Shown here piece by piece: positions 10,556-14,885 of a stretch of DNA of 14,927 nt. Location of the stretch: assembly GCA_014762585.1 (NCBI GenBank), contig JABURN010000124.1:1-14927 (forward strand). The letters run 5' to 3'. The DNA comes from Methylophaga sp. Lineage in GTDB: Bacteria; Pseudomonadota; Gammaproteobacteria; Nitrosococcales; Methylophagaceae. Below the pieces are notes generated by a model, which saw only the letters and a program-made list of their open reading frames with translations, was not told where the DNA came from and did no database searches. Every line of letters starts with the position of its first letter. Position 1 is the first letter of the stretch. A program made the position numbers and the translations under genes.

Positions 10556-11410
10556 TTATTGCTTGACGAGATTAAGTCGCTGACAGATAGTCAAAGTCGG
10601 CTCGGTTTTGTTCATGGTGTAGAAGTGAAGGCCGGGCACATCAAGCTCAATCAACTGACGGGTGAATTCGGTCAGAAAGTCCAGAGTGAAAGCTTTCATC
10701 GACTCGGTATCATCATAGAATTCTTCCAGGCGCTTGCGTAACCAGCGCGGGATTTCGGCACCACAACTGGCAGAAAAGCGTGCCAGCTGGGCAAAGTTAT
10801 TGATCGGCATAATGCCGGGAATGATCGGAATATCGATACCTTTCCGGGCACAGCGATCGAGGAAGAAACGATAGGCGTCGATGTTATAAAAATACTGGGT
10901 AATAGCACTGTTGGCACCGGCATCGACCTTACGTTTGAAGTTATCCAGATCAAACTCGGCGGTGTGTGCCTGAGGATGCACTTCGGGGTAGGCAGCCACT
11001 TCAATATCAAAATAGTCGCCGGTTTCCTTGCGGATAAACTCAACCAGTTCACTGGCATAGCGGAAATCGCCCGGGTCACGCATACCGGAGGGCAGATCCC
11101 CGCGCAGGGCTACAATCCGATGAATGCCGTTTTGTTGGTAGGTATCGAGCATTTCCCGCAGTCGTTCGGCACTGGAGCCGACACAGGACAGGTGTGGTGC
11201 GGCATCAATACCGGTAGCGGGTTGCTGTTGCTGAATTTCCAGCACCGCTTCCATGGTATTGTCCTGAGTGGAGCCACCGGCGCCGAAAGTCACCGAATAA
11301 AACTCGGGCGCGAGTGGGATTAAGGCCTCGCGAACACGGCGCAGATTGGTCACGCCTTTTTCGGTTTTAGGCGGAAAAAACTCGCAACTGAGCGTCAGAT
11401 TTTTGGACAT
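10556..11410 (-). CDS. metF: 5,10-methylenetetrahydrofolate reductase
   Basis: MetF reduces methylene-THF to methyl-THF, the methyl donor for methionine synthase, using FAD and NADH. Seen in 284 residues: LSCEFFPPKTEKG at the start (family motif EFFPPK), then SVTFGAGGST, RIVALRGDLP, AAYPEVHPQA, TQYFYNIDAY and GLHFYTMNK, covering the whole barrel. Length is normal. It follows metK and ahcY and completes a methionine/SAM recycling set, but an intrinsic terminator stands between ahcY and metF. The start has only a weak ribosome-binding site (AAGA), with the terminator T-run about 15 bases upstream. Expression thus may come from readthrough or from a promoter not seen. Confidence 0.96.
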   Translation of the reverse strand: MSKNLTLSCEFFPPKTEKGVTNLRRVREALIPLAPEFYSVTFGAGGSTQDNTMEAVLEIQQQQPATGIDAAPHLSCVGSSAERLREMLDTYQQNGIHRIVALRGDLPSGMRDPGDFRYASELVEFIRKETGDYFDIEVAAYPEVHPQAHTAEFDLDNFKRKVDAGANSAITQYFYNIDAYRFFLDRCARKGIDIPIIPGIMPINNFAQLARFSASCGAEIPRWLRKRLEEFYDDTESMKAFTLDFLTEFTRQLIELDVPGLHFYTMNKTEPTLTICQRLNLVKQ

Positions 11411-11469: not shown

Positions 11470-12780
<1,311 letters not shown>

Positions 12781-12794
12781 GATGATTCCTTAAA

Positions 12795-13958
12795 TTATTT
12801 CAGACCGGCGGCATCGCGTAATACGTCAGCCATATCGGTGTTTTCCCAGCTGAAGCCAGCATCTTCACGGCCGAAATGACCGTAGGCGGCAGTGGGTTGG
12901 TAAATGGGTTTAATGAGGTCGAGCATTTTGATAAGACCGACCGGGCGCAGATCAAAATGTTCCCTGACCAGCAGCTCCAGGCGCTCCTGCGGAATTTTGC
13001 CGGTGCCGAAGGTTTCAACGCTGATCGAGGTCGGTTCAGCGACACCGATGGCGTAGGAAACCTGGATTTCACAACGGTCGGCGAGACCGGCAGCAACGAT
13101 ATTCTTGGCTACATAACGACCGGCATAGGCCGCACTGCGGTCGACCTTGGACGGATCCTTACCGGAGAAGGCACCGCCACCGTGACGGGCCATGCCACCG
13201 TATGTATCAACGATGATTTTTCGACCAGTCAGGCCCGCATCACCCACCGGGCCACCAATGATGAACTGGCCGGTCGGATTGATATGAATCTTGGTTTTGG
13301 CTGTCAGCCAGTCTTCCGGCAGAACCGGTTTAATGATGTGCTCCATCACCGCTTCTTGCAGATCTGCCTGGGAGATTTCCGGGCTGTGCTGGGTAGACAA
13401 GACAACCGCATCAATGCCGACCGGTTTGCCATCCTGGTAAACAAAGGTCACCTGACTTTTGGCGTCCGGACGCAACCAGCTCAGTTCACCGCTTTTACGG
13501 ATGTGCGCCTGTCTTTTCACCAGACGATGGGCATAGGTAATCGGCGCCGGCATCAAAACATCGGTTTCATTACTGGCATAACCGAACATCAGGCCCTGGT
13601 CACCGGCACCCTGATTTTCTTCGGTATCGCGGTCAACGCCCATAGCGATGTCGGAGGATTGTTTGCCAATCAAAGACATGACGGCACAGGTCTGACCGTC
13701 AAAGCCGACTTCTGAACTGTTATAGCCGATATCGGTGATGGTTTTGCGCACCACGTCTTCCAGGTCGACCCAGGCCGAGGTGGTGATTTCGCCGGCGATA
13801 ATCGCGGCACCGGTTTTAATCAGGGTCTCACAGGCGACCCGGGCGCGGGGATCCTGACGAAGAATTTCGTCCAGGATGGCATCAGAAATCTGATCAGCGA
13901 CTTTATCCGGATGACCTTCTGACACGGATTCAGAAGTGAAAAGATAGTTACTACTCAT
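12795..13958 (-). CDS. metK: S-adenosylmethionine synthetase
   Basis: MetK makes SAM from methionine and ATP. Seen in 387 residues: [19 protein letters not shown] (His16), [12 protein letters not shown] (117-122 begins it), the metal- and phosphate-binding [19 protein letters not shown] (from 260), and the C-terminal [12 protein letters not shown]. The start at 13958 is chosen over an upstream in-frame ATG at 14006 because [19 protein letters not shown] matches the family, an AGGAAG site lies six bases before it, and the longer start would be buried in the leader hairpin. It is the first gene after an SAH riboswitch and is followed by ahcY at 14 bases, so SAM synthesis and SAH removal appear to be controlled together by SAH. 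Confidence 0.98.
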
Positions 13959-13969
13959 AGCCAGCTTCC

Positions 13970-14041
13970 TCATTACATTAGTTCGAGGTAATGATAGTGG
14001 TGCCATGAGTCGGGGACATTGCTCATTACTATCAGTTACCT
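13970..14041 (-). promoter_or_regulatory. Expression platform of the SAH riboswitch (metK leader)
   Basis: Two exclusive folds are visible. Fold A: AGGTAA-C-TGATAGT (14041-14028) pairs with ACTATCATTACCT (13998-13986), 13 pairs with one bulge, and the metK Shine-Dalgarno AGGAAG (13970-13965) stays free. Fold B: TCATTAC (13994-13988) pairs with GTAATGA (13976-13970), reaching the first base of the Shine-Dalgarno. Both use 13988-13994. The pairings are read directly; the switching role is inferred. Confidence 0.55.
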
Positions 14042-14050
14042 GTTAATAAT

Positions 14051-14118
14051 GAACGCAGTTAGTTGAAACCTGTTGGATAAGCCTAGCAGGGTATGTCCTG
14101 TTGCAGCGTTCCTTATCC
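14051..14118 (-). ncRNA. SAH (S-adenosylhomocysteine) riboswitch aptamer
   Basis: Reading the minus strand: P1 GGATAAG (14118-14112) pairs with CTTATCC (14081-14075), seven pairs. Between them lie the conserved ACGCTGCAAC (14110-14101), a small stem CAGG (14100-14097) with CCTG (14090-14087), and TAGGC. After P1 a linker leads to GCGTTC (14056-14051), which pairs with GAACGC (14111-14106) as the pseudoknot. This order, the CGCTGCAAC core and the AGGCT element are those of the known SAH riboswitch family, which raises expression when SAH is bound. It lies about 93 bases upstream of the metK start codon. A SAM-sensing class is not favoured because none has this pseudoknot layout and core. Confidence 0.88.
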
Positions 14119-14128
14119 GAAAGTCGAC

Positions 14129-14156
14129 ATATTAATCGAAACGGCAGATTTTTCAA
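14129..14156 (-). promoter_or_regulatory. Candidate sigma70 promoter of the metK-ahcY transcript
   Basis: Minus strand TTGAAA (14156-14151), 16-base spacer, TAATAT (14134-14129). Transcription would start near 14122, four bases before the first P1 base of the aptamer, which is where a riboswitch promoter should place it. The -35 matches five of six consensus bases, the -10 four of six. Confidence 0.6.
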
Positions 14157-14192
14157 GCTTGTAAACGCCAGTCGCCAGCCTGGCAGCGGCTT

Positions 14193-14885
14193 TTACAGCT
14201 GAAGTTTCTGTCCGTTTGATTTCAACCATGCCCGATGTTGCGTGAACGCCGGGTCAAATTGTTTCACCAGTTGCCAGAATGCCGGTGAGTGATTGTGCTG
14301 ACGCAGATGACAGAGTTCGTGAATGATGACGTAATCAATAATGTCAGGCGCCGCCATGATGAGTTTCCAGTTAAGCTGCACTTTTCCTGATGCGGTACAA
14401 CTGCCCCAGCGGGCACGGTAGGTTTTGACTTCTATGCTGGCGGGCACCAATCCGATCTGCGCTGCCAGTTCTTCGCAGCGGGCTGTTAGTAAATGCTTCG
14501 CCTGTTGTTTGTACCAGCCTTCGACTTGCCGTTTTATCGCTGCCTGACTGGGCTGCGGGTCACGGTGCATGACAAGCAAAACATTATCAGTGAGTTGTAT
14601 CTCTCTGCGCGCCTGGGCTGGCTCAACCACCAGACTATGGGTTTTACCCAGATAGAGCAGGCTTTCGCCGCTTTCGAATTGTTTGGCTTTAACTGGAGGG
14701 TGCGCCAGCAGCTTTTGCTGTATCCAGTGACTTTTTTCATGGACGAAGCGCTCGGCTTGATGCAAGGGCAGGCGGGCCGGGATGCGCAGTTTGACCTCAC
14801 CGTTACGGATGCCCAGCGACAGGGTCTTGCGGCGCTTGCTGCGTCTGACCTCGACCTCCACGCCGTTGCAATGGATGCTTCTCAT
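14193..14885 (-). CDS. YgjP-type zinc metallopeptidase (DUF45/M48-like)
   Basis: The role of this family is poorly known. Seen in 230 residues: an N-terminal beta-rich part with RRSKRRKTLSLGIRNGEVKL, typical of the YgjP/DUF45 family (COG1451), then YRARWGSCTASGKVQLNWKL, and the zinc site HELCHLRQHNHSPAFW (HExxH with a further His in HNHS). Key residues are present, so it is probably catalytic. No signal peptide or membrane segment is seen, so it should be cytoplasmic. The start ATG at 14885 lacks a visible Shine-Dalgarno site; only 42 bases lie upstream in the window. It is separated from the metK promoter by about 36 bases and is probably not part of that unit. Confidence 0.9.
   Translation of the reverse strand: MRSIHCNGVEVEVRRSKRRKTLSLGIRNGEVKLRIPARLPLHQAERFVHEKSHWIQQKLLAHPPVKAKQFESGESLLYLGKTHSLVVEPAQARREIQLTDNVLLVMHRDPQPSQAAIKRQVEGWYKQQAKHLLTARCEELAAQIGLVPASIEVKTYRARWGSCTASGKVQLNWKLIMAAPDIIDYVIIHELCHLRQHNHSPAFWQLVKQFDPAFTQHRAWLKSNGQKLQL

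Follow-up and report, generated by a model that had tools for sequence, protein, structure and literature searches.

A putative three-hairpin expression platform connects a SAH aptamer with the metK ribosome-binding site in Methylophaga and its relatives

SAH is a by-product of methylation, and SAH riboswitches classically precede ahcY. They operate in the ON direction, a strand of the aptamer pseudoknot competing with a blocking helix; the system described here would resemble them in both respects. The riboswitch before ahcY, its aptamer family and its ON direction were reportedly described by Wang and colleagues in 2008. In most of the short-platform relatives which were folded here, an extension of the pseudoknot strand pairs directly near the Shine-Dalgarno sequence. 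We analysed a window of 14,927 nucleotides from Methylophaga sp., a methanol-eating bacterium (contig JABURN010000124.1; coordinates refer to the window). When tested, its aptamer belonged to the same family as that of the riboswitches before ahcY. It differs from the short-platform SAH riboswitches in that a strand mimicking the Shine-Dalgarno region, an ON (antisequester) hairpin and a sequester strand are interposed, and in that the first gene is metK. At a probability of roughly three in four, we take the element to be a SAH-responsive translational ON switch for metK-ahcY-metF with a relay-type expression platform.

On the minus strand the window carries, in this order, a promoter-like site, the SAH aptamer, a platform of 85 nt, metK, ahcY and metF. 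The genes were named by NCBIfam: metK, SAM synthetase (12795..13958; TIGR01034, 621.5 bits, cut-off 309.4), ahcY, SAH hydrolase (11470..12780; TIGR00936, 668.6 bits, cut-off 497.6) and metF, methylenetetrahydrofolate reductase (10556..11410; TIGR00676, 326.7 bits, cut-off 293.7). They would be read as one transcript. The ATG start of metK at 13958-13956 was chosen from context, and homologues agree. The promoter-like site TTGAAA-16-TAATAT (14129..14156, minus strand; 2 sites in the region versus 0.6 in shuffles) ends 8 bases upstream of the aptamer; a transcript would therefore start nearly at P1. A CTTG...TAnnnT-like pattern is seen at the same place in many other leaders (by eye, uncounted). 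No terminator-like site, i.e. a leader hairpin followed by a T-run as in intrinsic-terminator riboswitches, was found on the minus strand in 13900-14300, as the initial annotation had maintained in arguing for translational control. Searching the leader against plasmids gave no match. A 9-pair helix over the metK start codon of the window was set aside: by eye, its upstream arm is present in G013, the nearest relative found (MetK 99% identical to that of the window), and missing in the near relative G004.

The aptamer (14044..14120, minus strand) matches RF01057 with 37.9 bits, narrowly above the curated cut-off of 37. P1 (14118-14112/14081-14075, 7 pairs), the P2 core (14100-14097/14090-14087) and the 6-pair P4 pseudoknot can all be formed in the window sequence. 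P4 joins GAACGC (14106..14111, minus strand) with GCGTTC (14051..14056, minus strand), the latter being the switching strand. In 46 leaders the P4 strands change together: GGAACG goes with GCGTTC in 39, and GGAGCG or GGGGCG with GCGCTC in 7. Of the 46 matches in the window's family, 45 score above the cut-off. SAM-cycle genes lie downstream, as is usual for RF01057, with ahcY second rather than first. Judged from sequence, the ligand would be SAH. The window genome (86% complete) has a single SAH aptamer.

An aptamer search gave a match in 77 of 143 genomes. In the window's family the aptamer was matched in 46 of 57 genomes, each time with metK downstream; the same search detected none in the six genomes of the order's other family. 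Eleven family genomes gave no match; metK was located in six of them, and its leader was readable in four. In G035 and G050 a laxer scan recovered the aptamer, and the platform is the same as the family's. The readable metK leaders of G024 and G045 lack the aptamer, laxer scan included, and, by eye, the platform. G045 and the 1.1 Mb G024 (loci L136 and L138) have metK and ahcY and apparently lost aptamer and platform. Outside the family 31 of 34 aptamer places were examined. ahcY is the next gene in 30, the exception being the first aptamer copy of G135, which precedes metK. This genome of another family has tandem SAH aptamers (L083:160-242 and 1440-1529), one before metK and the other before ahcY; both score above the cut-off and have short platforms.

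A pattern scan of named genomes yielded 51 loci, all with metK downstream, from Methylophaga, Piscirickettsiaceae or other gammaproteobacterial MAGs, and Cycloclasticus. Since the pattern includes the pseudoknot-strand extension, these loci are selected for it; the 46 family leaders were found by aptamer alone, without such selection. Thirteen of the 51 are new platforms, L135 and twelve of Cycloclasticus type (11 titled Cycloclasticus, L114 titled Piscirickettsiaceae; L117 and L123 are from one isolate). Together with the 46 this gave a set of 59 leaders, 55 of them distinct, from Methylophagaceae and Cycloclasticus.

The first helix of the platform would compete with the pseudoknot. The initial annotation had proposed eight pairs, one of them G-U, between GTTCATTA (14054-14047) and TAATGAGC (14028-14021). 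These pairs are exact, but the helix is longer, 11+3 pairs. It spans 14054-14044/14031-14021 with 11 pairs, two of them G-U, and continues after an A.A mismatch (14043/14032) as CAG/CTG (14042-14040/14035-14033) with a GUAA loop. Thus, on the minus strand, a 5' arm GTTCATTATTA (14044..14054) is joined via the cap CAG-GTAA-CTG (14033..14042) to a 3' arm TAGTAATGAGC (14021..14031), which resembles the Shine-Dalgarno region GTAATGAGG. This anti-pseudoknot helix is conserved. The 46 leaders found through the aptamer all have 10-13 contiguous pairs, and the remaining 13 have 10-12. Every one of the 59 leaders shows standard pairs throughout columns 2-10; at column 3 these are C-G (7), U.G (38) and U-A (14). 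Its pairing probability exceeds 0.5 in 57/59 leaders and is 1.00 in the window. When strands were swapped between 26 divergent leaders (<75% alike), z was -1.5 (419 of 20,000 swaps), a slight co-evolution signal because the strands hardly vary. Within Methylophaga no pair of the anti-pseudoknot or the ON helix changed on both sides, and pair counts within the genus were dropped as a covariation test because they are too invariant.

The ON hairpin is conserved as well. In the window its 13 pairs, 14041-14028/13998-13986, are exact in the sequence as annotated, with C14035 bulged. The 5' arm is AGGTAACTGATAGT (14028..14041, minus strand); the 3' arm ACTATCATTACCT (13986..13998, minus strand) holds the sequester strand. 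The arms pair with -16.6 kcal/mol compared to -8.3 (sd 2.4) with shuffled 3' arms, 3 of 1000 being as good; the 3' arms of 9 of the 58 other leaders pair with the window 5' arm equally well or better. The helix was then counted by folding each leader on its own while its pseudoknot strand and ribosome site were blocked. At least 7 pairs (the 13-pair helix or a lineage equivalent) were present in 59/59 leaders. It has bases in common with the anti-pseudoknot arm in all 59, which bears out the proposal that the helices are mutually exclusive in the order given below, and it overlaps the sequester strand by at least 3 nt in 49. Counting own folds with strands blocked, some helix is expected, and a swap test serves as control. 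The metK start is GTG in L054, L059, L065, L071 and L075; in four of these five leaders the ON/OFF overlap is small (0, 1, 1 and 4 nt).

In the swap test with the 26 divergent leaders, own ON arms paired with -14.35 and swapped arms with -11.29 kcal/mol (z -6.0, 0 of 20,000 swaps; these z-scores ignore phylogeny). Wider arms gave z -6.5 (0/20,000), two control strand pairs -1.4 and 0.3. By group, z was -6.0 for 28 other Methylophagaceae (0/20,000) and -2.3 for 19 Methylophaga (185/20,000); it was flat for the 12 Cycloclasticus-type leaders (-0.4). Between groups, Cycloclasticus-type 5' arms reached -9.2 with Methylophaga 3' arms and -15.9 with their own; Methylophaga 5' arms reached -16.6 with Cycloclasticus-type 3' arms and -17.4 with their own. 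Only 34/59 leaders had ON arms better than 95% of shuffled 3' arms. Pair counts in 33 two-arm rows showed 78.8% paired versus 73.2 (sd 1.0) in shuffles (0/500) and at most 49.1% when slid. In these rows 28 cells had changed on both sides versus 15.5 in shuffles; pairs changed on both sides showed no excess (3 versus 3.5). The covariation score of 0.198 was matched by a slide of +3 (0.210). The clearest change, from U-A (15 rows) to A-U (12 rows), concerns one pair; as the A-U rows coincide with the twelve Cycloclasticus-type leaders, it is possibly a single event. Across the divergent leaders the ON arms show co-evolution, for which the initial annotation had suggested looking; in the OFF helix the same 26-leader swap test gave z -0.2, i.e. 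no co-evolution.

This OFF helix consists of the seven exact pairs that had been annotated, the sequester strand TCATTAC (13994-13988) with GTAATGA (13976-13970), which abuts the Shine-Dalgarno AGGAAG (13965..13970, minus strand). It covers only the first base of AGGAAG and flanks the Shine-Dalgarno rather than masking it. Of its cells within Methylophaga, 83.3% are paired. The free-state opening cost of the ribosome site is hardly above that with shuffled linkers (10.7 versus 9.9, z 1.8). The partner of the sequester strand in Methylophaga is mostly the bases just before the mimic strand; in many family leaders outside Methylophaga its partner is the mimic strand (TAATGAGCGTTG with CAAC.CTCATTA). 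Both arrangements follow one logic. L033 (G003), although placed in the window's genus, has the platform type of the other Methylophagaceae with direct pairing to the mimic strand, and differs in the alignment from the 19 other genus members.

Energies computed for the window were -14.1 kcal/mol for the anti-pseudoknot hairpin, -6.0 for its remnant without the pseudoknot bases, -15.3 for the ON hairpin region, -3.7 for the OFF hairpin and -7.2 for the P4 duplex. Summed up, the unbound state (-17.8) is more stable than ON alone. ON together with P4 comes to -22.5, not counting ligand and pseudoknot cost, and is more stable than P4 with remnant and OFF (-16.9). The initial annotation had the ON hairpin form once GCGTTC is held by the pseudoknot. 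With 13 strand bases held, ON was indeed the best fold (-15.9), but with GCGTTC alone held a remnant of 7+3 anti-pseudoknot pairs persisted and the best fold kept OFF (-16.4); the two folds thus differ little in energy.

Accessibility of the Shine-Dalgarno core was mixed in the 46 family leaders: 14 went up and 12 down by >0.05, and in a second computation 14 up and 3 down by >0.1; in the window it was 0.55 in both states. The opening cost of the ribosome site (-20 to +3) was added after this outcome. With the six pseudoknot bases held it fell in 46/46 leaders, by 1.2 to 7.2 (mean 4.1), compared to 0.9 with shuffled linkers, and in the window from 16.8 to 9.6 kcal/mol. The computed opening cost favours the ON direction that had been predicted, throughout; the mixed core accessibility counts against it. 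In a like computation 13 short-platform SAH leaders showed a fall of >1 in 10 cases, mean 2.5. The recurring helices, the lower opening cost and the absence of a terminator make a translational ON switch well supported computationally.

The relay would run from pseudoknot strand to mimic strand, sequester strand and ribosome site. In the absence of SAH, the pseudoknot's 3' strand and its extension would pair the downstream mimic of the Shine-Dalgarno region. The anti-pseudoknot hairpin would then occupy the ON hairpin's 5' arm, leaving the sequester strand to pair beside the Shine-Dalgarno (off). Once SAH is present, the pseudoknot would keep its strand and the anti-pseudoknot hairpin would open at its base; the ON hairpin could form and capture the sequester strand, and the ribosome site would open (on). 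The direction in the cell, the translational level and the kinetics of this scheme, like the way in which the platform arose, are what we infer.

Possibly the pseudoknot 3' strand pairs the Shine-Dalgarno region directly, the ON hairpin being merely nested and the anti-pseudoknot hairpin a side product. Short-platform ahcY relatives mostly fold in this manner. Among the 59 leaders such pairing has a probability >0.3 in three (G025 0.67, L090 0.45, G048 0.39); of 17 leaders folded, three (G008, G025, G031) have it as their best fold. We consider it unlikely because anti-pseudoknot pairing dominates in nearly all leaders, as given above, and the matched anti-pseudoknot duplex has -13.05 versus -6.90 for direct pairing. 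Moreover, in the window the anti-pseudoknot partner is only about 12 nt away and is transcribed long before the Shine-Dalgarno. A little less probable still is an aptamer variant that senses SAM, or both SAM and SAH, putting metK under product feedback. The window score is near the cut-off, and in M. nitratireducenticrescens an element next to methionine adenosyltransferase is named a S-adenosylmethionine riboswitch by PMC12530212 (2025). However, RF01057 scores above its cut-off in all but one of the family matches, ahcY is in the same operon, and product feedback would call for the opposite of the ON sense in which the folding logic runs.

Least probable, in our estimate, is an aptamer that acts otherwise, for instance by transcription attenuation or mRNA decay, with the helices forming constitutive structure or stabilising the RNA. 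The poor coverage of the Shine-Dalgarno core by the OFF helix and the unchanged accessibility in the window would fit; the missing terminator-like site in 13900-14300 and the invariable overlap of the ON hairpin with the anti-pseudoknot arm speak against it. So does the joint occurrence of platform and aptamer, both absent in G024 and G045 (platform by eye) and both present in G035 and G050.

Returning to the relay, its platform in Methylophagaceae and Cycloclasticus looks as if the direct strand-to-Shine-Dalgarno platform, which elsewhere precedes ahcY, had been lengthened. It is about an even bet that a SAH riboswitch moved from ahcY to metK and its platform was rebuilt with a Shine-Dalgarno mimic and a second anti-Shine-Dalgarno, giving a three-step RNA relay by which SAH turns on SAM synthetase and SAH removal. 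If so, the repeated TCATTA/TAATGA strands are the trace of a duplicated module. Given SAH riboswitches before metK in most family genomes and in Cycloclasticus, SAH would raise both SAM synthesis and its own removal. The platform offers natural variants of a multi-hairpin switch in which different sequences carry the same logic, and should aid the study of how riboswitch platforms grow.

According to a survey that covered about 200 proteobacterial genomes, metK is not under SAH riboswitch control (PMC4239095, 2014). For M. nitratireducenticrescens GP59, Table 4 of PMC12530212 (2025) has an entry for a S-adenosylmethionine riboswitch next to methionine adenosyltransferase, the sole mention of a Methylophaga element beside metK in the literature searched, which largely excluded subscription papers. 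Very probably this entry is the SAH element described here; the gene link has then already been published, under a different name. The same literature yielded no description of the relay platform. Two things are new: this platform, and that a SAH aptamer is recognised before metK across a family.

Other RNAs share single traits with the window. The SAM/SAH riboswitch RF01727 of Rhodobacterales also precedes metK and also has a SAM-cycle ligand, but it belongs to another aptamer family and another lineage (PMC4239095; PMC2864571). The SAM-Chlorobi motif stands before metK and ahcY operons with a gene content like that of the window, yet is a different RNA whose preliminary probing revealed no binding (PMC2864571). 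The add adenine riboswitch and the T-box likewise free the ribosome site by an antisequester hairpin (PMC10907184). The window differs from these by an additional anti-pseudoknot hairpin, which would gate the antisequester.
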